Source of the DNA: Liolophura sinensis
Taxonomy: Eukaryota > Mollusca > Polyplacophora > Chitonida > Chitonidae
Reading direction: 5' to 3'
Length of the DNA: 64,000 nucleotides
Assembly (NCBI RefSeq): GCF_032854445.1
Contig: NC_088295.1
Span: forward strand, 26,277,385-26,341,384
The translations under genes were made by a program, and so were the position numbers. Below, one piece after another: positions 6,028-63,313 of this stretch (position 1 is the stretch's first letter; each line of letters begins with the position of its first letter). The notes below the pieces were generated by a model, which worked only from the letters and a program-made list of their open reading frames with translations, made no database searches and was not told the origin of the DNA.

Positions 6028-6930
6028 ATGGGTTACACCGTGTCCTTTCAGTGTCCCTACAAAAACATGATGGCGCCATGTCCTTACAATGTGCATACAA
6101 AGCATGGTGGTGTGGAATCCTTACATTGTTCCTACAAAACATCGTGGCGCCATGTCCTTACAATGTGCATACAAAGCATGGTGGTGTGGAATCCTTACAT
6201 TCTTCCTACAAAACATCGTGGCGCCATGTCCTTACAATGTGCATACAAAGCATGGTGGTGTGGTATCCTTACATTCTTCCTCAAAAACATCGCGGTGCCA
6301 TGTCCTTATAATATGCCTTCAAAGCATGGTGGTGTGGAATCCTTACATTGTTCCTACAAAACATCGTGGCGCCATGTCCTTACAATGTGCATACAAAGCA
6401 TGGTGGTGTGGTATCCTTACATTCTTCCTACAAAACATCGTGGTGCCATGTCCTTACAATATGCCTTCAAAGCATGGTGGTGTGGAATCCTTACATTGTT
6501 CCTACAAAGCATCGTGGTGCCATGTACTTACAATGTGCATACAAAGCATGGTGGTGTGGTATCCTTACATTCTTCCTACAAAACATTGTGGCGCCATGTC
6601 CTTACGATGTGCATACAAAGCATGGTGGTGTGGTATCCTTACATTGTTCCTCAAAAACATCGTGGTGCCATGTCCTTAAAATATGCCTTCAAAGCATGGT
6701 GGTGTGGTATCCTTACATTGTTCCTACAAAACATCGTGGCGCCATGTCCTTACAATGTGCCTACAAAGCATGGTGGTATGGTATCCTTACATTCTTCCTA
6801 CAAAAATATCGTGGCGCAATGTCCGTGCAGTGTCCCTACAAAGCATGGTGGTGGCAAGTACGGGGAATACTGTACTTTCTGTTTTCCTACAAAATGTAAA
6901 TGGTGCTGCCGTTTACAGTGTTCTTTCAGA
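6028..6930. repeat. tandem array, 37-bp monomer in 74-bp dimers (left part)
   Basis: Two related 37-bp half units alternate. One begins TACAAAGCATGGTGGTGTGG and the other TACAAAACATCGTGGCGCCA, and both contain TCCTTACA. The 74-bp period is exact where measured: TACAAAGCAT occurs at 6096 and 6170. There are about 24 half units, well conserved in the middle and degraded at both ends. Neither 37 nor 74 is divisible by three, so the reading frame shifts from unit to unit. No unit contains a stop in any forward frame, so three long overlapping ORFs (up to 317 codons) arise as a by-product. The array continues at 12531 beyond the inserted LINE. Confidence 0.93.
6919..6930 (+). repeat. target-site duplication, left copy (LINE)
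   Basis: The 12 bases TGTTCTTTCAGA are identical to 12519-12530 directly after the LINE 3' end. The local array consensus here is closer to TGTTCCTACAAA, so the shared non-consensus bases support duplication at insertion rather than array homology. Confidence 0.85.
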
Positions 6931-7202
6931 ACATCCTTGCACGAAGTTTAGTTGTTCTCTTGGCTAGTGGGTGAGCGGGGTTGTAAATAGAGTTAGTCCT
7001 TGGCTGGCCGTGGAACTAGCCTTTGTGCTCTCAGCTTTTGTTTAGTGGTCACCCAGTCTGAGGGTGGTGCGACATTACGTTCTGTCGCTCTTAGCGGCAG
7101 GACGTATTCACTAGCCTCTCTGTAAATAGCCTGTACATAGTTTAGTGCATTTCCACTTTGTAATATCGTATCTAGCATCTACACTGTTCCAAACGCATAG
7201 TT

Positions 7203-8720
7203 GTGGTCCTCTCTTTAGGGTGGCAGTTCTCGCCCTGGCCCACAATGTTGTGGGCAGGGCGAGTAAATAGACCCTTAAGCCTTAAGCTTGTAATACAGGG
7301 AGGCGTACAACCGGTTGAAGTATACAATCGGCTAAAGGAGTTAGTGGGGAGTGGGCCTAATGTCTTAAAGGGACTAATCAATGTCTCTAGAGATGTCTCT
7401 AGAGTGGCTACGCAAACTGTGAAGGAACAGCTGTTGGCTAGCGGTTTCACATTCAAAGGGGTAGATTGTCCAATATATGATGTTGAGGAGCAAAGGCTCC
7501 TGGTTAGATCTCGATGTCCGATCGAGGTGCCCGATGACACTATTCGAGGTTTGATGTCCCGGTCCATCACGTCAGCCGGGAACATTACCTTTTTGATAGG
7601 TCACTTGAGAATGGTATGCGCCGTATTTACATGAGTGGTGTGACCGAGATCATTTAACAATCAATTTCGGTTGGAAATTTTAGAATTCCTTTGTGGTACA
7701 CAAGTCAGGTCCGTGCCTGTCACATCTGTGATAGCAAAGAACATTTCAAGGCCGACTGTCCTTTAAAGGATAAATGCCTCAAGTGTAAACAGGCAGGCCA
7801 CTTTCAAAAGGACTGCCCGTTGAGCGATGAAAATGACAATGGCGATAATGACGATAACGATTGCAATGATAATGATGATGATGATAAAGATAGTAATGTT
7901 TATGAAGTTGAAGGTGACAATAAAGAAGAGAATGAAGGTCGAGGAGATGATGATGGTAATTATAGTGAGGGACATGGGGATGATATGGAAATTGGGGTTT
8001 CTGGCGAGTCTGTTCCTTCCAGTCAACAAAATAAGGGGACTTTGGATAACTCTGCTGCTGACAACGAGGAAGCTGGAGAGTGGCAAGTTGTCACTAACTC
8101 CATGTCCTCCAGCAAAAAGATTCGAAATAAGCGCATTGATGCTACAAATAAGGTCAGGAAGTTAAGCGAATCGCCAGTAGTAGGTGGGCCCCAGACGTAA
8201 AATGGCGCTGAGTGGGCTGTCCGTATCAGTCAAATCTCGAATACCTCCTCACCACCTAGATCGTCAGAAATTTCGAATACTACGCCATCCTGCATTAAGG
8301 AGACGCAATCCAGTGGCGTGACGCTCTCCAAAGGTGCACTTGGTAAGATCCCGTCCTTATGGGGTAGCACGTTCAGCCCTGACACATCTACAATGTCACA
8401 GTTAGGCACTAGAGATATAGCAGATTGTCTTGATCCTCAGGGAAGCTCTCAGCAATCTGATATGTCTAGGGTTGGTGGAGAATCCAATATGGAGGAATCT
8501 CTTTGCACCCGAAGACTTGCCTGCATATACTAATGGCAAGGGTGAGGTCTTGGTACCTATCTCAACATCCCTGGGGTCGTATTATCGCACATTGTGACGT
8601 GATTCTAAAGTTGACAAGGTTAAAAAGCAGAGGAAATTGATAACGTTGTCACAGGAGGATTTTGCTGAGCGTAGGGCAGCGATGTATAAAAAGTCCAGAA
8701 AAAAGAAAAAGAACAAATAA
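7203..8720 (+). pseudogene. LINE ORF1 (Gag-like nucleic-acid-binding protein), broken
   Basis: ORF1 proteins of this LINE type coat the element RNA and bring it back to the nucleus. The true start is unclear: the open frame at 7203 begins with GTG, and recognisable protein starts near 7310. The N-terminal part runs to about 7590, where the frame shifts. The new frame reads through an RRIY/MSGVTEII segment, meets an in-frame TAA near 7654, then continues with two zinc knuckles of spacing C-X2-C-X4-H-X4-C (CHICDSKEHFKADC and CLKCKQAGHFQKDC, about 7720-7820). An Asp/Asn/Glu-rich low-complexity tract follows at about 7825-7960. The C-terminus is interrupted by further stops (near 8198, 8531 and 8595) and ends in a Lys/Arg-rich tail at 8720, 9 bases before the ORF2 start. 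Confidence 0.82.
7229..7263 (+). other. strong hairpin near the LINE 5' end
   Basis: A 17-base arm, CTCGCCCTGGCCCACAA, is followed by a 2-base loop and a 16-base complementary arm with a single bulged base. It lies in the 5' untranslated region or just upstream of the recognisable part of ORF1, where internal promoter or translation signals are usual in LINEs. A role is inference. Confidence 0.7.
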
Positions 8721-8729
8721 ATATTAATA

Positions 8730-11700
8730 ATGGCTACTACAAAGATCTTACAGTGGAACTGTAGAGGATTGAGGTGTAACCTCGCAGAGCTCCAGATGTT
8801 AGCTCAAGACCTCAATCCTATAGCTTTTAGTTTGCAGAAGCCCTGATGACTGATACTAGTTATCAATGTCGACGTTATGTATCTCATCACGCTGTTGCCA
8901 CGTCTATGAATGGAAAGGCATCAGGGGGTTCTTCTCTTTTGATTAGGCAGGGTGTAATACACAATAGACTGGCACTGAACACCGATTTGCAGGCGGTGGC
9001 GGTGTGTATCACCCTGGGTATAGTATTAACAATCTGTTCTATTTATATACCACCTTCTTCTACTCTTCACCAACAAGAGCTGCAAAATTTACAAGATCAA
9101 TTGCCTAAACCGTGTCTTCTTTTGGGTGACTTTAATGCCCACAGTGTTCTCTGGGGTGATTCTAAACGTAACCAGAAGGGCTCTGTATTGGAGGATTTTA
9201 TATCTAATAACTCTCTATGCGTCTTAAATGATGGCACACATACTTACCTTCATCTTGCAAAGGGCACTTATTTGGTCCTTGATTTAGCTCTGGCTGATGC
9301 AGGGCTAAGGTTGGAATTCAGCTGGAGCGTCCATGATGATCTGTGCGGAAGCGATCACTTCCCTACCATTCTTACCTTTGAGGAGCTGGTATCTTCCTCC
9401 CTTCCACGCTTTAATTATGATAAGGCTGACTGGCCCCGCTTTGCTGTTCTGTGTGGTGAAACACTTACTAACGACCTTTTTCTCGATGCAGTTGATCCTA
9501 TCCAGTTATTCTCGGATCAGCTAATCGATGTAGCGGTTCCCCGTATTAAGAAACCCTGGTTCACGGAGGACTGTAAACGAGCTAGGCGTTTCAGGAAAAG
9601 TGCTGAGCGCGTGTACCGATGTAGACCATCTCCCGGTAATTTAGACGATGTTAGGCGTACTCGAGCTAAAGCCCGTAGGACTATTAAACAGTCCAAACGT
9701 GACTCTTGGAAACGTTATTTTTCTAAGATTAATCATCGTACCCCTATGTCAAAAGTCTGGAATATGATCCAACGCATCAAAGGCAAGGAATCCAATGTCA
9801 ATGTCAATCATCTTAAAGACGGGAATAATTCTTTGACAGAAAAACTTGACATAGCCAATAGGTTGGGCGCTTCTTTTGCGCATCATTCGTCTTCAGATAA
9901 TTACTTGCCTCAGTTCCAGCGTAGCAAGGAACGGACCGAGGCAAGTCCTCTTGATTTTACATCCTCAAATGAAGAATCTACATTTTCTCTACATGAACTA
10001 TCCGCATCCCTGAGCAAGGCCCATGACTCAACTCCAGGGCCAGATGATATCCACTATCAGCTTTTACAACACCTTCCTAGAATCTTCCTTGAGGGTGCTT
10101 CTTGGAATTTTTAATACCATTTGGATTTCCGGGAATTTTCCTGCCTCATGGCAAAACGCTATTATTGTCCCCATCCCAAAGCCCGGAAAGGATTCTACAG
10201 ATCCAAATAACTACCGTCCTATTTCCTTAACCAGTTGTGTATGCAAGACTATGGAGAGGATGATTAACGATCGCTTAGTCTGGTTTTTGGAGACTAATAA
10301 GTTGATAAGCGACATTCAATGTGGATTTCTAAAGAATCGCAGTATTGTTGATCACCTTGTTCGTCTAGAATCCTTTATTAAGAACGGTATCGTTAATCCT
10401 GACCATGTCGTATCTGTCTTTTTTGATCTGGAAAAGGCATATGACACTACTTCGAAATATGGCATTATGAAAGATATGCATGGATTTGGACATAGAGGTC
10501 GGCTTCCTGACTTTATTCGTAAATTCTTAGACCATCGTTACTTCCAAGTTCGGGTTGGGGCTACCCTACCTGACTACTTTGAACAAGATCAGGTTGTTCC
10601 TCAAGGCAGCATTTTATCAGTTACTCTCTTTAGCATTAAGATTAATAGCCTTGCCAGAGTTTTATCTCCTAGTATGAATATGACCCTTTTTGTGGACGAT
10701 CTTGGTATCTCTTGTCGAGGGAAAGGTATGCACACTATTGAGAGACAGTTGCAGATTTGCCTTAACAAAATCCATGCCTGGGCACTGGAGAACGGATTTA
10801 AGTTTTCCAAGTCGAAGACTAACTGTGTACACTTTTGTCGGAAGTACTTCCCCCATGAAGACCCCAAGGTATTTTTACATGGGTCCCCCATCAAGGTTGT
10901 GCCGGAGGCAAAATTTCTCGGGGTGATCTTCGATAAGCACCTTACATTTAAATCTCACATTAATTATCTTAGAGCCAGATGCCTAAAGGCGCTTGATATT
11001 TTGAAGGTTGTCTCTAGTGCTCGATGGGGAGGGGATCATGAAACCCTACTTCAGCTCTATCGATTCGTTCTAAGCTAGACTATGCCTGCAGTGTTTATGG
11101 AGGTGCGTCACGCTCCCAGTTGAAGAAACTCAATACTGTACATCACCAAGCCCTACGGTTGTGCTTAGGTGCTTTCCGTACCTCTCCTGTGGAGAGTCTG
11201 TATGTTGAGGCAAACGAGCCTCCCCTGGAGCTTCGAAGAACTACTGTAACTATCCTTACAGTATATCACCAAGCTTAGAGCCAATCCATCCAACCCAGCC
11301 TTTGACTGTGTCTTCCATCCGGAATTTGAAGACTTATATGCTCAGAAGCCATCCATTGTTCCTCCACTAGGTGTCCGCATCCAGGAACATGTGCAAGCAG
11401 CTGGACTTGGGCTGGATACTATCACCCCCATCCAGGAAGATCCACCGTGGTTATGTACTGAGCCTCAGGTTCCTCCCTGAAGAAATCTTCCACCAACCCT
11501 TTGGTATACCAACAGGAGTTTAGTAATATGTGTTCAAAGTATCCATTTTATCACCGTATATTCACTGACGGTTCCAAGAATGATGATGGGGTGGCTTCTG
11601 CCGCTGTCCTTGAGCCCAGAACCATTTCAACTCGGTTCCAAATTCCTGTTCTGTATTTACTGCGGAAGCCAAGGCAATTTTGTGCGCACTTCGGTCCATT

Positions 11701-12354
11701 AGAGAGCTAGGAGGTAGCAGATTTCTCATCTGCTCTGACTCCCTTTCCTGCCTCCAGGCAATTCGGGCTAGTTTGCCTGTACATCCAGACATTCTGTCTA
11801 TCAGGGAGATGTTTAAACGACTTAATGAAGATTTTATCATTGTCTTTTGTTAGGTGCCCGGGCATATGGGTGTCCCAAGGGGCATATGGGTGTACTGCTG
11901 CAGATGAAGCCGCGAAGGCGGCTCTGCATTCCGTTATTACCCAAACTGACGTTCCATATTCGGACTTGCGTTCACTTATTTGCTCCTATATCAAGCGCTT
12001 GTTTCAGGCTCAGTGGGATGACCAGACAACCAACAAGCTGCACGATATAGACAGTTTGTTGGTCCAGCACCTTCCCTTTCACGGCATCGTCTCCGCTCTT
12101 CCATTTTGAGGAGGTGTCGTATCGGTCACACACGTGCTACGCATGGGTATTTGTTGAAAGGAGAAAATGCTCCTCATTGCTTTGCTTGTGATCAACGGTT
12201 CACAGTCAAACACATATTGCTTGACTGTGGCGACTTTGCTCCTGTACGAGATTCCTTTTATTACGTGAGCTCTCTTTCAGAACTTTTCAATTCTGTAAAA
12301 AGTGATACTATTTTTGATTTTCTCTCTACCATTGGTATGGCAGGAAAGCTGTGA
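8730..12354 (+). pseudogene. LINE ORF2 (endonuclease-reverse transcriptase-RNase H), broken
   Basis: ORF2 cuts the target DNA and copies the element RNA into it. It starts at ATG 8730 with LQWNCRGL, the first APE endonuclease block. A one-base loss near 8835-8842 shifts the frame at the conserved Gln-Glu site. The 8846-10114 frame then carries SIYIPP, LLLGDFNAHS and GSDHFP. A shift near 10080 leads into reverse transcriptase (10023-11078 frame): IPKPGK, NYRPISL, FFDLEKAYD, VPQGSILS and the catalytic FVDD. Shifts near 11068 and 11245 and a stop at 11478 precede RNase H, where all four acidic residues are visible: FTDGSK, TAEAK, CSDSLS and AADEAAK. A TAG at about 11852 replaces an expected Trp before VPGH, and that motif is followed by a short local duplication. 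The C-terminal RIGHTRATHGYLL, CFAC and HILLDC motif ends at 12354. Confidence 0.9.
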
Positions 12355-27600: not shown

Positions 27601-27674
27601 TAATTTTAGCTTTCCTATTCTAATTCAAAGGTCATAAAGAGAAATTATGGGATTACCATAGTTGGTTATCTGCA
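21686..27674. other. long noncoding stretch, no gene recognised
   Basis: No convincing exon, RNA or tandem array. A weak family B remnant may lie at 23250-23370 (GAGAAAACCGGATAACCC ... TCACCAAGTACGTGACAAA). A short duplicated TTGTTGTTATTATA motif lies near 24660-24770. Short ORFs on both strands at 22.4-22.7 kb overlap and have no recognisable content. Confidence 0.45.
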
Positions 27675-28511
27675 GTTGTGAGCAAGCCGTCAGTATAACG
27701 CTGTACATGGTACCAGTTGTGAGCAAGTCGTCAGTATAACGCTGTACGTGGTACCAGTTGTGAGCAAGTCGTCAGCATAACGCTGTACGTGGTACCTGTT
27801 GTGAGCAAGTCATCAATATAACGCTGTACATGGCACCAGTTGTGAGCAAATCATCAATATAACGCTGTACATGGTACCAGTTGTGAGCAAGTCATCAATA
27901 TAACGCTGTACATGGTGCCAGTTGTGAGCAAGTCGTCAGTATAACGCTGTACGTGGTACCAGCTGTGAGCAAATCGTCAGTATAACGCTGTACATGGTAC
28001 CAGTTGTGAGCAAGTCGTCAGCATAACGCTGTACGTGGTACCAGTTGTGAGCAAGTCATCAATATAACGCTGTACATGGCACCAGTTGTGAGCAAATCAT
28101 CAATATAACGCTGTACATGGTACCAGTTGTGAGCAAGTCATCAATATAACGCTGTACATGGTGCCAGTTGTGAGCAAGTCGTCAGTATAACGCTGTACGT
28201 GGTACCAGCTGTGAGCAAATCGTCAGTATAACGCTGTACATGGTACCAGTTGTGAGCAAATCGTTAGTATAACGCTGTACATGGTACCAGTTGTGAGCAA
28301 GTCGTCAGTATAACGCTGTACTTGGTACCAGTTGTGAGCAAGTCGTCAGTATAACGCTGTACGTGGTACCAGTTGTGAGCAAGTCATCAATATAACGCTG
28401 TACATGGCACCAGTTGTGAGCAAGTCGTCAGTAAAACGCTCTACGAGGTACCAGTTGTAAGCAAGTCGTCAGTAAAAAACTGTACGTGGTACCAGTTGTG
28501 AGCAAGTTGGT
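27675..28511 (+). repeat. 41-bp tandem array, 20 copies, with higher-order repeat
   Basis: The unit is GTTGTGAGCAAGTCGTCAGT followed by ATAACGCTGTACRTGGTACCA. It stays exactly in register from 27675 to 28495 (20 full units plus a partial). Variant sites distinguish subtypes. Units 3-8 (27757-28002) recur in the same order as units 9-14 (28003-28248), a 246-bp higher-order repeat. The last two full units are the most diverged. Confidence 0.95.
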
Positions 28512-54008: not shown

Positions 54009-54284
54009 ATAATTGAGGGGCCTCCGTGGCCGACGGGGTTAGCACACGAGAACGGCGCAATGACCCAAGAGCCTCTCACCAATGCGATCGTTGTGAGTTC
54101 AAGTCCAGCCCATGCTGGCTTCCCCTCTGATCGTGCGTTGGAAGGTCTTCCAGCAACCTGTGGATGGTCGTGAGTTTCCAACGGGCTCTGCCGGGTTTCC
54201 TCCCACAATAATGCTGGCCGCCGTCGTATAAGTGAAATATTCTTGAGTATGGCGTAAAACACCAATCAAATAAGTAAATAATTG
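54009..54284 (+). mobile_element. SINE family A, full length, with target-site duplication
   Basis: The element runs from GGCCTCCGTGGCC (54019) to the AAATAAGTAAATA end. It has a tRNA-like head with A-box region GGGGTTAGC and B-box GAGTTCAAGTCC, the body CAACCTGTGGATGGTCGTGA, and the full tail TGAAATATTCTTGAGTATGG. The 7-base ATAATTG is present at 54009 and again at 54278, so the listed span includes the duplication. Best reference copy of the family in this window. Confidence 0.92.
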
Positions 54285-54419: not shown

Positions 54420-54660
54420 AGCCTACGTAGCCTGGTGATCAGTGTGCTTTAGCGCAGGGCAGTGCCCCAAGAGCCTCTCACCAATGCCTGCGCTGTGAGT
54501 TCAAGTACAGCTCATGCAGACTTCCTCTCCAGTCGTATGTGCGAAGGTCTTGCAGTAACTTGCGAATGGTCGTTGGTTTCCATTGGACTCTGTCTGGTTT
54601 CCTCTAATCATAATGCTACGCGTATAAGTGAAATATTCTTGAGCATGGCGTAACTTTCCA
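54420..54660 (+). mobile_element. SINE family A, second copy, more diverged
   Basis: Same orientation as its neighbour 135 bases upstream. The head is diverged (GCCTACGTAGCCTGGTG), with CAAGAGCCTCTCACCAATGC, a B-box GAGTTCAAGTACAG, and tail TGAAATATTCTTGAGCATGG. It lacks the ACACCAATCAAATAAATAAA end. Confidence 0.85.
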
Positions 54661-54971
54661 GTCGGATCAAATCTTTTAGAACCAGATAACTTTTGTAACA
54701 TGCGACCACCTTTCGGCCAACGTTGTTCCATCGTGCGATCTATCGTCCATTTGCTCAGTGATGAGGGCCTTGGTTTATTGATTTGCTAATCGTACAGAGG
54801 GCACGTTCACATGCTTAGGAATCCGACCGCGTGAAACACAACTCATCAAACCACAGAAGTACAACTGCACAGCACCTGACTGGCTGGCGAAGCTGGATGC
54901 GAAATCGTCACACCATTGGTCACTGCATGAGTTTGCGTTTGTATATTAATGCGGCACCGCATGATGTCCGA

Positions 54972-55085: not shown

Positions 55086-55462
55086 CTCAACTTAATACGC
55101 TGAGAAATCTCCATGCGACTATGTTTAACAGGGTCCAACGACATTGGAGTTTTGGGGCAAAGAAGACCTTGATGGAAATAGAGCTATGCTACAGACGTAG
55201 ATATGAAAGCCATGAAAAAGTGTGTGTATAAAAACCATGAAAGTTCATAACAACAATCAAATACCTTAAATTCATATACTTGAAATGAAACTATTCCAAA
55301 CACACAATAAAAATTTCTCTGTTTATTTATTTGAAGGCTTACAGGTTTATGGGTGCATCGAACTTTTTCTTTTATGTACATACGTGCAGCGTTGGTATAT
55401 CAAATATAGTGAAACACTATGTGCATAATTCACAGATTGTATCGGACACACGGACTTAGACA

Positions 55463-58400
55463 ATGACTGACCTTAGATTTCCGGGGATGAACGCCGGGAT
55501 ACTGGCCAGTTTTCAAGCTGTCATGGAAAACATCGCCAAAACCAGGTAAGCGGCACAGGCAAAAGTTAGAATGGGACACGTATAACTATAACAAGAGGAT
55601 AATTTGTAACTATTGTTTCACGAATGGATTTTGAAAAAAAATTATAATCTGCATGCATTTTCCATGAATTTACCATAAGTTCTTATCACCGTAATTTGGA
55701 CGTATTTCGTGCATGTATTTATTTATCTGTAGAAAGTATATCGGGTATTGTACACATCAGCAAACAATAGTGTTCGATCACGTTTTTGTTCGTGTTTTTC
55801 TTTTTTCAGACTGAGGGACACATTTGCAAGTGCTCAGCTGAATCCAGAAACCATGTTGAAGGTATGACTTCATACAACTGATGGACATGTTCATATATGT
55901 CACTTCTTTATTGGAATAGGTCTATATTGGAAATATGGAACACGTTCAGGTGAGACAAATTTTAGAAAACAAGAAGCTGTGTGTGTTTTACAAATGGAAT
56001 TGTAGAATATAAGTGAATATATATTTATTTTATTTATTTCACTGGTGTTTTTCACGCGTTTGACGACCGCATCAGTATGGGTCGGGGAAACCGGAGTGCC
56101 CTTGAGTAATCTCACGTGAACCTAACAAACCACTTTATTTAAAGCCGCCAATGCAAACGCACCCACAGCAGCGAGAGCTGGATCCGAACGCGCGAACTCA
56201 TTAGGCAAGGTCACATTATCGGATACGAACAGATGATCCTGTGAGGCTTACATAGCACATATTCTAAACAGCTTTCCTAGATAACATTCATCTGACTGTT
56301 CATTGCTTTGTTTTTGCGCAGACTAAAGACACAGGAGACCGCTACCCTTGTTCCGGCGACCATCTAACAGCGCTGTCCGTTCGTCCGTCCTATACTTCAC
56401 ATAATAGGCTCAGTATGGGCATTGTCGGCTGCCTGCCGGACAATGTCCAGAGGGTATGTAGGTAAACGTCTGTATAGCTGAGTAATGTCCCTGATTTGAA
56501 AATTTGAGACCCACTTCTTTAGTAATTCAGATGGTTTAGAAAAGAAGGAGAAATGTCGGTTGTAGAAACTGGTTAGAAACTAGATATTTGGTAGCCTGAC
56601 CAGGAAACATTAAGATATGTACAGGATTAAGTAGAAAATGCCGAGATGTTTGGGGGATTAAGTAGAAAATGTCGAGATGTCTGAGGGATTAAGTAGAAAA
56701 TGTCGAGGTGTCCGGTAGATTAAACTGAAAATGTCGAGGTGTCTGGGGGCTTAAGTAGAAAATTTTGATGTGCCTGGCGAATTAAGTAGAAAATGTCAGG
56801 TATCTCGGGAATTAAGTAGAAAACGTTGAAATGTCTGGAGGATGAAATAGAAAATGAGGAGGTGTTTGGTGCATTAAAAATGTTCGAACGTTTGAACAGG
56901 ATGCATCAACATGAGTGGTCATTTGAGCAAATTTATTTGTTATTTATTTATTTGATTGGTGTTTTACGCCGTACTCAAGAATATTTCACTTAGCTCTGCG
57001 CTCAGCCCGGGCGAAACCCACGATCATCCTGGAAAGGAAGCCTGCTTGAACTCACAGCGACCGTATTGGTGAGAGGCTCCTGGGTCATTACGCTGTTCTA
57101 TCGCGCTCACCAACTGAGCCACGGAGGCCTCCATTTGAGCAAATCAGTATCTGTCTAGAGATTAGAGCAGGATATATAAAGATGTCTGGAAGCTTTGATA
57201 TAAACAGATCGAGATATCTGGACATTTAAACATGATACACCAGTCTATCTGTGTGGCAATTGCGTTGATGCGCCAACATGTCCGGAAGCCTTGCCGGTTC
57301 ATCTGGAAGTAGGGTGTGTTAGGACAAGTTATCTCTGATGCTTTGATGCAGGTACATCAAAATATTTGAACTTTTGAGCAGGATACACCAGACTCTCTGG
57401 AAATTGTTTAGTATACGTTAAGGTATTAACATATTTTCGAACAAGATACATCACGATATCTTCATTAAGGCCTATGTCACGTTTTCTTTACTTTTAGGTA
57501 GGATACAGCTCGATATCCATGTTATGATACGTGGAAGTTATTTGCCTTTATAGACAATTTGCATCTATAATCTGCTAAAAATGTTAAACGCTTAAATTCT
57601 GGATGTAAGAGTAATGAAGGAATCAAGGGAGAACAATTTAAGTATCAATGTTTTCTGATTGATAATCTAACGTGCCATGTTTTGGTTATTTTCTTTCAAA
57701 GGCTACGTGGAGTTTTTCTATAAAGCCTGGTAAGCAACATTTCACCATATCCTTTCCCTTCATGGCGGACATGATTCGTTCATGCCCAACAGACAGCGAT
57801 TTCCAAGCCTCTGATCCAACCAATCAGCTCACAGAAGCTTTATATATCGACATGGGGCCAGAGGTCATTTCCGGCTTTCGATCTATATCAACATTGATGT
57901 TGAACAAGCAAAGGTATATATTTTTCAATTTATGCACCTGCTCTAAGTCTCCATTGCTTTGCTGTAGGTTAAACAAACGACTATATTTTCATCACTGAAA
58001 AAAATATAAAACAATAAGTAAAAGTTTTTTTCAGATACAGTTTTTAATGGTATTTCTAGTTATGCATGCTTATTTTAATTTTTTCTTTCGCTATAGGTAT
58101 GTATTTTTGTCTCAACAGGACTTCAGTCGTTGTGGTTCTACTCACATTATTCGAAGTCAATTCCACGGATGGAATCCTGCGACATTTTGAAAGTATGATC
58201 AGAATGCTTGTCCACTCCAACACACCAATAACGCTGTGGAGACACCCGGTAATATCTCTCCCCAAATCTCGGTATTATCTATGAACAAATTTAAAAATAA
58301 GGATTCGTCTCTCTTTTCTCACACCGCGTTATTGTCTTAAGTGAGTTACACTGGACATGTAGAGAAATGTAGATGTGTTTACAGATTTCCTCACAATCAC

Positions 58401-61400
58401 ATGGATGGCAAACCTGTAATATATTACAGAGTTTACAAAATACAATATTCTTATTTTGAACTCAAAAGTGCAAAGTTAATTATTTGGTGTTCGTAAACTT
58501 TCTAATATGTCCTCTGTAATATATTGCATCTGTAACAAAAGAATAACAAAAGTGCCTAATTTTATACTTTAGGGCGTTTTACGATAACATAAATTATTAC
58601 TTCTAAATCTCACTCTGAAAACAATCGCCATATGCTCTTTGAGTATCAGTGAAAGTACGGGTCCTGCTATGGTTCAAAACGGGTATACAGCTATGTCTTG
58701 TTGTTGTTGTTGAATTGTATTTAACATGATTTCAGCTCTGTGTTATGGATCTCGACTCAATCGTACAGGAAGCAATTTGCAGCGCAAGCGCGGAGACCAT
58801 TCTGGAAATCCAGCATGAAAATATACAGAATTCGTTTCCGGGAAAGAGTAGACATGAACTCCATCAATATCTCAAAGTAATTGGTTTTCTTGGTTATTTT
58901 CGTGGAGTGTTGTATTTAATTACAATTGAATTTCAATTGAATGTCCAAAACTATATTAGTAAAAACATGTTTTTGCCAGAAAAGTTCTTCAGTACTTTGA
59001 ATCAAACATAAGCGGACTGCATCTCGCTTATCAGCAAGTGGGCGCTATATGTGGACTTCAGACATTGTCATAATGCTTTAAAAGATAGCTTGCTCTGATA
59101 TAAGCAATATGCTTCGAAAGCTTTTCGCTCTTTGGAAACGAAACCTTGCTGAACCGCCTTATCACACCATGTAACCAAACCCACTGTGAATCTTCATCCT
59201 TGTCGACTCAGATGAATTTATGGATAGAGTTACTATGAAAATGACGTTAAAACGATATGTTTTGTCACTAAAGATGTAAGCTTCATAAAGCTGTACAAAT
59301 TATTCTCTTCCCCCATCGTTTTCTCAGAATGTTTCAAAATATTTGTCGGAGAGGCGGTTGAAAGGCTTGAAGTCGTGTGCTTGTCTGTAAAACAGTGTAG
59401 AAGAACAGGCTAGAATATTAAATCCCAACTGAGACCAGATAAGCTTGAGGTAGGGTAGGCCTATATTGATAATTTTTTCCCCTGTCAGAGCAGATATATA
59501 TGCATGGTAGTCTGATTTAATTCTACTTAAACTGCAATGAAGGATCGCTGTGCACGGAACCAATCATGCAAGAGGTGTGTGTTTGAATCCAGTTAAAACT
59601 GCCTTTACGTCGGAAAGCTTGACAGGTAATTGTTCAGGTGTGACAACTCCTTACTACTGGTATAGTTTTCTTTACTATATAATATGATTTTATTCACAAT
59701 TGTAGGATCAGGTGATAGCTTCAAGGTTTCGCTCCTACAGCCAGCACTTTTACAGGACATCAAAAATTCTTTCTGACCCCACAGTGACGTCCCAGAATGG
59801 TAATATCAGCACGATGTTAGAGCATCTCAGGTGGGGACACTGTTCACCGGCAGACTTCAGCAAAGTGGATACGTACATCAAGGTGAGATCAGTATAGGAA
59901 ATGCTTCTTTGTGGTGAGGACCACAATAAGGATCAGTCACTCCATGCATAATTTCAGTTTTCCAGTCATTCAAATTGTGTTCAGTATTAAATAGTTGTTA
60001 AATAATGTAATCTGGTGATTCATGATAGCCAAGGAGAATGAATACTCAAACTCAGCAACTGCCATATTAATAGTCATGTTCAGTCAAGTTAACATGTAAG
60101 TTTTGGACGTAAGAAACGTTATATCAGGATTTTATATATTTTAACTGCATCTTACGTTAAAATTATATATAATAATTATGTTGAAATTTTATATAATTTT
60201 AAAAGATTTTGTGTAGCTATTGGGGTTTCATTTCATGCTTAATGACGACTCTGGTTCAAAGTGTGATAACCATTGTTCTATTGCAATAGTTAAGTTGTAC
60301 GTTACTGCTGTAATTCTTCAACTTTTTCGCATGTGTGCAAGGTGTTTATTCAGGCATATTCTGAGAACATTATTCTGCTTAGTCCTGAAATTTGTCAACC
60401 AACCAATATAGTGTGGTCTCACAAATTAAAATTAGGTTGACTGATACATTAAAAAGGTGCGTAAATCTCATTGAAAGTTGACCTTTCATATGTGAAAAGG
60501 TTGGGGAATTAGGGTAGTCAATAGTAAGATGTAGCTGATAAGATAATCACAAAGGCAGGAATGAACAATAGGCTTCACAGCTTAGGCCCGAATTACTTTA
60601 GACGAGTAAGGTTCCCCATTTTATTGACTGTTCCAAGCGTTACTGACGATGTAATATTATTCTTTCAAAAATTAAAGCGTCTAAGATGTAATTATGAAAA
60701 TATATAGACACTACTTCATGATTAGTTATCCTGATTTATGACGATTTAGTGTAACGAACTTTGGTTTGGATAAGGTTGGTGTTCCAGCTTAACGTTTACT
60801 CCTGTTGCTATCTTGACAGTCTTCACCCTCCTCCTTAGTCAAAAACTTCTGGCTGGTCTGGGGACATGAACAACTGGCCCTGAAAATATTTCCTGTTGCT
60901 AAAGTTGCACGTGAGCCTCGATGTTTCCAGTTGTCCAATCACAACTCAACGGCAGTTCTCAGCGACAGCAGGGTGTCTGTTGCACATGTATCAATAAAGG
61001 AAGGTCTGAAAAACATAATAGATAGCCTTAAGCAACAGGAGCCTCATGGTCAAACAGGTAACTGGACACACATTTATACTTATTTATTTATTTATTTATT
61101 TTATTGCTTTAATTAACGCCACAGTCGAGAATGTTTTACTTATTCGAAGACAGCCTTTTCTGTAAATTGGCGGAGGAAACCGGAGTGTCCGAGTAATGAA
61201 CCACCGGTCTGTGGTAAGTTACTGGCAAACATTTGCACTTGTGACATACGTCATACTGGTGGACGATAAGCGCGTTCCGGCGAAATAGATGTAAGATCGC
61301 ATAATCTTACTAATGTATAAGTGATTGTAATCTATAATTTATGTATATATATCACCGTATACTCAACTTTCACTTGTACACTTAAAAATTAACCTCTTAA

Positions 61401-63289
61401 TTTAAAGGAAAGTTTGTCGCCTGAGTGATGCCAGAATGTATTCTGTTATTGTTACACAATATTCTGTCATATTCAACAGAATATTCTGTTAGTCTGACAG
61501 AATCTTTATGTTGAAATAATAGAACATTGGTGTTCTATTTAACAGAATAATCTGCTGCAGTAGCAGAACACATTTTAGCATCACAGATTTTCTGTTAAAT
61601 TTACAGATTGTGTTTTTTTTTTTTTGAGTGTACAGTGGTGGAACGGGTTATGGGTGAAGGCATTAGACCGAGTCCGAGCACCTCTTCCCTATAGACAAAG
61701 GTCTTGCAGCAACCTGCGGATGGTCGTGGGTTTCCTCTCACCGTAATGTTGGCCGTCGTCGTAATGAAATATTCTTGAGTACGGCGTAAAACACCAATCA
61801 AATAAATAAGTAAATAAATATAGACACAGGCTTTGCAGAGGGTCATATGAAAAACCACTGAAATGGCTCTGTCTTGCATGAAAGATATTATCTTTTTAGG
61901 TATGAATGAGGGTGATGAGAAATGTGCGCAATGTTCCTGCTGCGCTTATGTACATTCTACATCTTCGCCGTCAGCGACATCACCATCACAAAACAGTAAG
62001 TCATTGGATGATCACCGGGGAAAACCTTCACAAACACGTTAATGCTGATTCGGATCCAAGCTAATGCACGTGCATTAAGGGTTCCCTTTCGAGTTACTGC
62101 ATCATGTGTTCATCTGCTAACGTCTATTTTGAAAGACTGATTATGGCCACCTATATTCTGCCACTTTTTAAGCACTTACATGAACAGATGGAATTACACC
62201 TTAACAGAGATAAATTGACAAAAGGGCATATTTCACGGGTTAGGTGTGACCACTTACCAATTATCACACTGTTGTCTTCACTCTGGATTTACACTTTATG
62301 CTTTAAGTCTTCGTTATCTTAGACATAAGGAAAAGGGACAAGACACATGAGGTGAACAATGAATTTATAGATTCTTCCGCTCATTGGCTTTAGTGACGAT
62401 AAACAGCAGGACGCTCAAATGGCCGCTTAATTGAGCAATTCGTTGCAGGACATTTTTCCTTTGCCAATATGGCAATCAAGTCTGTATCTTAAACGAGGGA
62501 AAGTGTGTCAGTAACTTGCCATAGGTTTACCTCGATCACTACAATTTCCTCCACCCATAAAATTGAACACCTACGTACCAAAACTAACAATTCTTCTAAT
62601 GTTGTGTTAAAAACAATAAAATAGAATAAATATGTACCAATCGAGATCGACGTTTGCCACACAAGACAATCAGTGGCCACAGAAACGAAATACTTCCCAT
62701 CACTCCCTTCCTGTTGCGTCGGAATAACGCACCAGTGATTATTACGAGTCCATGTTGGCTCCCTCTTCAGTCGTCAGTGGTAAGGCCTGACAGCAACCTG
62801 CGGATGGTCGTGGGTTGTGCTCGAGCTCTGCCCGGTTTCCTCCCACCGTATAACGCTGACGTCGTATAAGTGAAACAGTCTTGAGTGAGGCATGAAAAAC
62901 CCATTAAATAAAAACCTTACGTTTAATCTGATGGGGTCATTCTCAAAGTAACTCAGCCTTTTATTCTTCTAGAGTCAGAGCGGGGAAATTCGGCATTTCA
63001 CCGACCGCGTGCTACAAGGAAAGTCCGACAGTCCACTACCCCATACAGCGATGCCTTGAAAGCTGTGGCTGTTTCACCCTACAGACAGGAAAGCTGCAAA
63101 AAGTTCATAGCTTACGAGCAAAAAGAGTCTGTTTTCGGCAGCATGAATAGAGGGAACTCGGTGTTGGACAGAAGGTCCTGTTATCCACAGAAAATGCCAC
63201 ACCTTCACAGTCTGTATTGTGATTTCTTCGGAACTAAAGTTAACACAGCCTCCTCTTCCGCAGAGCCATCAAGTACAACTTCACTCTGA
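55463..63289 (+). CDS. ten-exon gene, predicted 525-aa protein; possibly M1AP-like
   Basis: Exons read by eye: 55463-55545, 55810-55861, 56322-56453, 57702-57913, 58119-58248, 58736-58876, 59706-59882, 60820-61057, 61900-61995, 62973-63289. Every intron is GT-AG and all phases join without a stop. The start has A at -3 and an in-frame TAG two codons upstream. A hydrophobic strand (TSVVVVLLTLFEV, about residue 161) follows an acidic-helical segment, as in an alpha/beta fold. FWLVWGHEQLALKIFPV lies near 317. Exon 9 has a Cys cluster (CAQCSCC) and the C-terminus is Ser-rich and basic. No signal peptide or membrane span is clear. The length, the TSVVVV block and a GLKNIIDSL block recall meiosis 1 associated protein (about 530 aa in human), but only weakly. 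Gene structure is solid; the name is not. Confidence 0.85.
56035..56200 (-). mobile_element. SINE family B fragment in intron 2
   Basis: Minus orientation: (TTTA)n then CACTGGTGTTTTTCACGCG, GACGACCGCATCAGTATGGG, TCGGGGAAACCGGAGTGCCC and GAGCTGGATCCGAACGCGCG, the last resembling a reversed B-box. Confidence 0.65.
56624..56890 (+). repeat. 31-bp tandem repeat in intron 3
   Basis: The unit is GGATTAAGTAGAAAATGTCG followed by AGATGTCTGAG. Exact 31-base steps occur at 56624, 56655 and 56686. Units then diverge and vary slightly in length, for roughly eight to nine copies. Confidence 0.88.
56920..57144 (-). mobile_element. SINE family A, full length, in intron 3, with 13-bp duplication
   Basis: The element occupies 56933-57131 on the minus strand, from the TTTATTTG tail to the head end GAGCCACGGAGGCC. 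The 13-base CATTTGAGCAAAT flanks it on both sides (56920 and 57132) and is perfectly conserved, so the insertion may be fairly recent. The body has lost the TATACGACGGCGGCCAGCAT segment. Confidence 0.93.
61075..61280 (-). mobile_element. SINE family B copy in intron 8
   Basis: Minus orientation: (TTTA)n, ACGCCACAGTCGAGAATGTT, GGCGGAGGAAACCGGAGTGT, GAACCACCGGTCTGTGGTAA, GTTACTGGCAAACATTTGC. The head end is degraded. Confidence 0.78.
61375..61634. mobile_element. MITE-like element in intron 8
   Basis: The ends are inverted: TGTACACTTAAAAA at the left and the reverse complement of TGTACACTCAAAAA at the right. The 260-bp interior is full of ATTCTGT/ACAGAAT in both directions, including the perfect 16-base palindrome AACAGAATATTCTGTT. 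No protein is encoded. A target-site duplication is not clear. Confidence 0.65.
61665..61835 (+). mobile_element. SINE family A copy in intron 8
   Basis: CAAAGGTCTTGCAGCAACCT, GCGGATGGTCGTGGGTTTCC, GTTGGCCGTCGTCGTAATGA, AATATTCTTGAGTACGGCGT, ACACCAATCAAATAAATAAG. The head is truncated. It lies just 3' of the MITE-like element. Confidence 0.88.
62505..62575 (+). mobile_element. SINE family B fragment in intron 9
   Basis: GTCAGTAACTTGCCATAGGT, TTACCTCGATCACTAC, TTTCCTCCACCCATAAAATT. Head and tail are absent. Confidence 0.6.
62745..62912 (+). mobile_element. SINE family A copy in intron 9
   Basis: GAGTCCATGTTGGCTCCCTC, GCAACCTGCGGATGGTCGTG, CTCTGCCCGGTTTCCTCCCA, then the diverged tail GTGAAACAGTCTTGAGTGAG with CCCATTAAATAAAA. 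It ends 60 bases before the last exon. Confidence 0.85.
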
Positions 63290-63307: not shown

Positions 63308-63313
63308 AATAAA
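63308..63313 (+). terminator. polyadenylation signal AATAAA
   Basis: The canonical hexamer lies 19 bases after the stop codon of the ten-exon gene, followed by GT/T-rich sequence near 63337-63365 that could be the downstream element. The 3' untranslated region would be very short. Confidence 0.7.

Follow-up and report, generated by a model that had tools for sequence, protein, structure and literature searches.

A well-formed ten-exon gene in a chiton genome and a tentative von Willebrand A-like reading of its product

A stretch of 64,000 nucleotides from the chiton Liolophura sinensis (hereafter the window; contig NC_088295.1, C1:26277385-26341384) holds, at 55463-63289 on the + strand, ten exons that can be joined in one reading frame. 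This locus raises two questions: whether the exon chain is a gene at all, and what kind of protein it would encode. An earlier sequence-only reading had suggested a diverged meiosis protein, either M1AP or a member of the TOPOVIBL (TOP6BL) family. We found that the chain is probably a genuine nuclear protein-coding invertebrate gene, an ordinary gene of the host. Its product would most likely be a non-enzymatic, fast-evolving adaptor built around a degenerate von Willebrand A-like core, a tentative reading that draws on predicted and by-eye structure.

Structure and coding status of the ten-exon gene

Splicing of the DNA at the ten exons gave a coding sequence of 1578 nt, encoding 525 aa and a stop codon in a frame without internal stops, and 9 of 9 introns were GT-AG, with phases 2,0,0,2,0,0,0,1,1. 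The gene structure previously proposed was thereby rebuilt exactly. The ATG at 55463 is preceded by an in-frame TAG two codons 5' (55457-55459), and the stop codon occupies 63287-63289. The AATAAA polyadenylation signal that had been placed 19 bases past the stop is present on the + strand at 63308-63313, by direct reading of the DNA.

Scoring against controls was needed because freely chosen splice sites let any 8-kb stretch be chained into an open frame. Using generic animal splice matrices, we ranked the splice sites against all 4079 GTs and 3660 AGs in the window. The nine donors fell between the 91.4th and 100th percentiles, and the nine acceptors between the 87.8th and 99.9th. The GC content of every exon (0.433-0.545) was above that of every intron (0.268-0.415). 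A generalised hidden Markov model (GHMM) gene finder with terms for start, stop, splice sites, open frame and exon GC gave the 8.4-kb gene region 53.9 bits, a score that is partly fitted, since the exon GC of 0.47 was chosen with the gene's own value of 0.469 known. Dinucleotide shuffles of the region (n=150) had a mean of 0.2 and a maximum of 4.9 bits, and its opposite strand scored 1.0. We also scored 13 control tiles of 8.4 kb across the rest of the window, on both strands. The ten tiles off a retrotransposon reached at most 16.0 bits, and the three that overlap it (1-16.8 kb) scored 26.8, 33.4 and 23.3 bits on the + strand. A smaller control set (17 tiles), covering neither 50.3-55.2 kb nor the greater part of the retrotransposon, had a top control of 14.4 bits; with the missing tiles added, the top rose to 16.0 bits, or to 33.4 with the retrotransposon included. 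Flank tiles holding Pfam-confirmed genes scored 24.3, 38.9, 77.8 and 18.4 bits. The ten-exon chain is thus well above chance.

The gene finder recovered eight of the ten exons base for base: exons 1 (55463-55545), 2 (55810-55861), 3 (56322-56453), 4 (57702-57913), 5 (58119-58248), 7 (59706-59882), 8 (60820-61057) and 10 (62973-63289), the last encoding an Arg/Ser-rich tail and the stop codon. These were initially spread over three chains, and merged into one gene, together with three extra small exons, only when a gene start was made costly. Passed over were exon 6 (58736-58876; 141 nt), which has a weak donor (AAA/GTAATT), and the Cys/Ser-rich exon 9 (61900-61995; 96 nt), which has a weak acceptor. 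Both are a multiple of 3 in length, and the crude score is higher when they are left out, by 3.1 and 1.6 bits, respectively. Support for the gene structure is therefore strong for eight exons, with exons 6 and 9 plausible but unproven. A further mini-exon proposed at 55920-55949 (10 codons) would add 1.8 bits; two others, at 57006-57068 and 61154-61213, were set aside as lying within or touching repeat copies.

Repeats of a mollusc-like kind are frequent around and within the introns. Copies resembling a short interspersed nuclear element (SINE) occur in both orientations at 54019-54281, 54450-54670, 56940-57129, 61698-61813 and 62747-62911, some of them yielding doubtful gene-finder exons, and intron 3 holds a 31-base tandem repeat at 56624-56877 (8.2 copies, 76 percent matches).

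Codon bias contributed little. A leave-one-out codon usage test in which the gene's frame outscored both other forward frames in all 10 exons was dropped, as it penalised off-frame stops and rewarded GC; once both effects were removed, the gene's frame came first in 4 of 10. With a codon model built from two neighbouring genes, the chain scored 0.060 bits per codon in frame against 0.001 and 0.013 out of frame, and the correct frame was best in 6 of 10 exons. Among 300 sets of non-coding open segments scored with this model (mean -0.013, s.d. 0.038), the maximum was 0.080, so that at least one non-coding set beats the gene. The two real neighbours, each scored by the other's model, reached just 0.014 and 0.013. 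When a neighbouring receptor gene alone served as the model, the in-frame score of the ten-exon gene was -0.055, and its two other frames scored -0.097 and -0.104. The bias is too weak to help much.

It is improbable that the chain is partly or wholly spurious, composed of chance open frames or the remains of a decayed gene. Such an origin would fit the weak codon bias, the weak sites of exons 6 and 9, and the over-prediction by the gene finder: of the 13 chains of at least 150 aa that it produced across 144 kb, two belong to the ten-exon gene, three were confirmed by Pfam, two are transposon-like by eye and the others are unconfirmed. Against it stand the score of 53.9 bits, compared with at most 4.9 in shuffles and 16.0 in window tiles off the retrotransposon, the exact recovery of eight exons and the uninterrupted frame. 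The gene merits annotation as hypothetical, being a well-formed animal gene without an assigned family.

The gene appears to be single. A protein search of the whole assembly (609,464,459 bases in 632 contigs, of which C1 has 96.4 Mb) returned 11 places at E <=1. Ten were the gene's own exons, and the eleventh (C7:47221301-47221567) was a weak stray match with 31 percent identity over 87 aa (E 0.7). No second copy was thus found in the 609-Mb genome by a search that scores the best candidates only and that a diverged copy could escape.

Family searches and the favoured reading of the product

We searched Pfam, NCBIfam, PDB sequences, IMG/VR and the host genome, the last being the sole eukaryotic genome among these collections. 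Profile searches against Pfam and NCBIfam gave no family match. With the whole 525-aa protein, Pfam returned nothing at E up to 10; six fragments gave a sole match in one fragment, Retrotran_gag_4 (E 0.069), which was set aside as weak, as was HpnD (E 0.084), with nothing meaningful in NCBIfam. PDB sequences gave 16 matches to the whole protein, none meaningful: 15 were tethered or covalent protease dimers, mostly from HIV-1 (best E 0.075), and the other was a trafficking-complex subunit (E 0.78). Further PDB sequence searches gave a cyanide hydratase (E 1.5) and a P450 (E 0.6), both set aside as weak, and IMG/VR gave nothing, as expected for an animal gene searched against a viral collection. 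No enzyme or known domain was therefore found in the product in Pfam, NCBIfam or PDB sequences.

This silence across Pfam, NCBIfam, PDB sequences and IMG/VR is what would be seen if the gene were lineage-restricted and belonged to an undescribed family unrelated to von Willebrand A or Ku proteins. Such an origin is possible, with no direct counter-evidence in collections whose sole eukaryotic genome is that of the host.

We nevertheless tentatively favour the adaptor with a von Willebrand A-like core. By eye, the product presents in order a possible strand NRLSMGIVG in exon 3, a strand pair, helices with TNQLTEAL, a strand TSVVVVLLT, a helix and a strand TPITLW; the hydrophobic TSVVVVLLTLFE of exon 5 is followed by such a helix and strand. 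This order resembles that of a von Willebrand A domain when the comparison begins at strand two. Exon 4 folded alone was predicted to form two strands and three helices, and exon 8, which encodes FWLVWGHEQLALKI and then GLKNIIDSL, four strands followed by a helix. On this weak evidence, the succession of secondary-structure elements is compatible with a von Willebrand A-like core that precedes a strand-rich module, an arrangement reported for M1AP. The degenerate core would then lie near the N terminus (about aa 70-205) and be joined by a helical linker to the strand-rich module (about aa 310-385), whose last element would be an amphipathic helix; a long basic C-terminal tail, probably disordered, would follow. 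By analogy with proteins of von Willebrand A/Ku layout, it would hold partner proteins together. We infer the adaptor role from this fold, just as we infer the fold and the fast evolution.

Several observations weigh against this assignment. The fold predictions were made from single sequences and are poor, with predicted local distance difference test (pLDDT) scores of 52.7 for exon 8 and 41.2 for exon 4, and neither model was good enough to support a fold search. Pfam listed neither a von Willebrand A nor a Ku profile at a cut-off of E 10, at which the HMMER filters still discard most matches above about 0.1. Neither the first strand nor the metal-site residues of a von Willebrand A domain were seen; the earlier remark that the first strand is not obvious agrees with our inspection of exons 1-3, where none was found.

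Resemblance to M1AP and TOPOVIBL

Could the gene encode an invertebrate M1AP orthologue that has diverged strongly and acts with the SHOC1-TEX11-SPO16 (ZZS) complex in class I crossover formation? To judge by the sequence this is doubtful. The query for human M1AP was a provisional sequence (length 530) in which 12 of 12 residues checked agree, ten of them at positions printed in PMC8944341; the mouse M1AP query was likewise provisional. Human M1AP itself matched nothing in Pfam, which thus lacks an M1AP model and whose silence is uninformative on this family; the Pfam negatives bear instead on TOPOVIBL (PF15091), von Willebrand A and Ku domains.

In favour of M1AP are the similar length (525 versus 530 aa), the same layout of strands, helix and basic tail, and four short blocks that fall in the same order in both proteins when aligned by eye with both sequences known: NRLSM/SRMSL, TSVVVV/TSLEIT, SSLVKNFWLVW/HSLLKREWLLL and GLKNIIDSL/SLKNVESMLDSL. 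The top segment from hhalign, though insignificant, coincides with one of these blocks (PSSLVKNFWLVW versus CHSLLKREWLLL). The blocks that had been cited as recalling M1AP do, by eye, occur in its order, but the resemblance did not extend to any significant score. No significant similarity to vertebrate M1AP was found by alignment or hhalign with the provisional queries: local and global alignments to the human protein did worse than the average shuffle, their scores being reached by 387 and 375 of 500 shuffles, and hhalign against the human and mouse sequences gave a probability of 0.06 percent and a score of 12.5, lower than its controls (24.0 for the best of 60 shuffles, 18.0 for the reversed protein). 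One of nine region-by-matrix tests was reached by 5 of 1000 shuffles, about chance for nine tries, and the other eight were unremarkable (232-903 of 1000). Overall, 10 of 11 alignment tests, as well as hhalign, did no better than shuffles, and the optimal alignments do not reproduce the register of the by-eye blocks.

Other features also speak against orthology. The first von Willebrand strand, as noted above, was not seen. In the hhalign register, the one human intron that could be placed from published data, after codon 358 (c.1073_1074+10del), lies 7 residues from the nearest junction of the chiton gene, though in the same phase. A passage of PMC12162868 describes M1AP as conserved only down to fish. 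Among the papers listed by a literature search on molluscs and sea urchins (12 of 10,331), none contained the phrase "meiosis 1 arrest protein", publication elsewhere still being possible. A meiotic identity of the gene, as suggested from its sequence, is unproven. Were it a true invertebrate M1AP, which we consider unlikely, it would represent a crossover factor far older than the fish limit in print and nearly beyond recognition by sequence, and both the age of M1AP, a gene of human male infertility, and that of its tie to the ZZS crossover complex would need revision.

The second meiotic candidate, a diverged TOPOVIBL acting as the partner of SPO11 in meiotic break formation, is disfavoured by the sequence and appears highly improbable. 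Its length is similar (579 aa in mouse), and a passage of PMC9671922 notes the strong divergence of the family. The same passage describes a REC114-binding C-terminal helix of TOPOVIBL that contains W562 and is conserved in metazoans. No such helix was found in our protein: tryptophans occur only at positions 92, 200, 293, 320 and 323 of 525, and none of the searches for the motif, strict or relaxed, gave a match. Nor was PF15091 matched in Pfam at E up to 10, by the whole protein or the six fragments. The strand-rich exon 8 follows a helical stretch, whereas the transducer of TOPOVIBL would instead precede a flexible tail. PF15091 run against the whole genome returned nothing, but its 14 controls matched nowhere either, making this search uninformative and suggesting that the family model may not reach invertebrates.

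Genomic surroundings and comparison with known systems

The neighbours outside the window, taken from gene-finder chains over 144 kb and Pfam, offered no usable synteny clue to the gene's family. In window coordinates, they comprise a rhodopsin-type receptor gene at -14550 to -11645 on the - strand (L014; 7tm_1, E 2.4e-62), a predicted 267-aa transposase-like chain, mariner-like by eye, at -35705 to -34771 on the + strand (L016), a trefoil and glycosyl hydrolase 31 gene at 65547-81388 on the + strand (L009/L010; E 7.1e-60, first 668 aa) and an HhH-GPD DNA glycosylase, endonuclease III-like, at 92994-95421 on the - strand (L011/L012; E 1e-10, 136-aa piece). The glycosidase chain holds a repeated LDLYYSIPGKFTW-like stretch, apparently a tandem repeat read as exon, and the glycosylase perhaps also includes 98276-103231, a second chain linked by eye only. 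Within the window, remains of a non-LTR (long terminal repeat) retrotransposon lie at 7100-12350, with open frames that by eye look like zinc-knuckle, endonuclease and reverse-transcriptase sequences. A 74-base tandem repeat at 6043-6853 (10.9 copies, 90 percent matches) carries three long open frames that overlap one another and reach up to 318 aa, probably not genes, and a 41-base minisatellite is found at 27673-28507 (20.4 copies, 91 percent matches).

Set beside known systems, the product is like TOPOVIBL (TOP6BL, PF15091) in its similar length and in the long C-terminal tail of both, but unlike it in the missing PF15091 match and C-terminal tryptophan helix. With M1AP it shares length, the by-eye order of a few short blocks and the succession of strands, helix and basic tail; it differs in lacking significant similarity and a visible first von Willebrand strand, and in lying outside the range down to fish given in the passage cited above. 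A passage of PMC11377751 describes the overall architecture of M1AP as like that of KU70/KU86, with a KU core, and groups it with the Ku-layout proteins. The chiton protein gave no Pfam or PDB sequence match to any of these (Ku70/80, INTS14) among the matches listed; like them, it may combine a von Willebrand A-like core with a strand-rich module that follows it.

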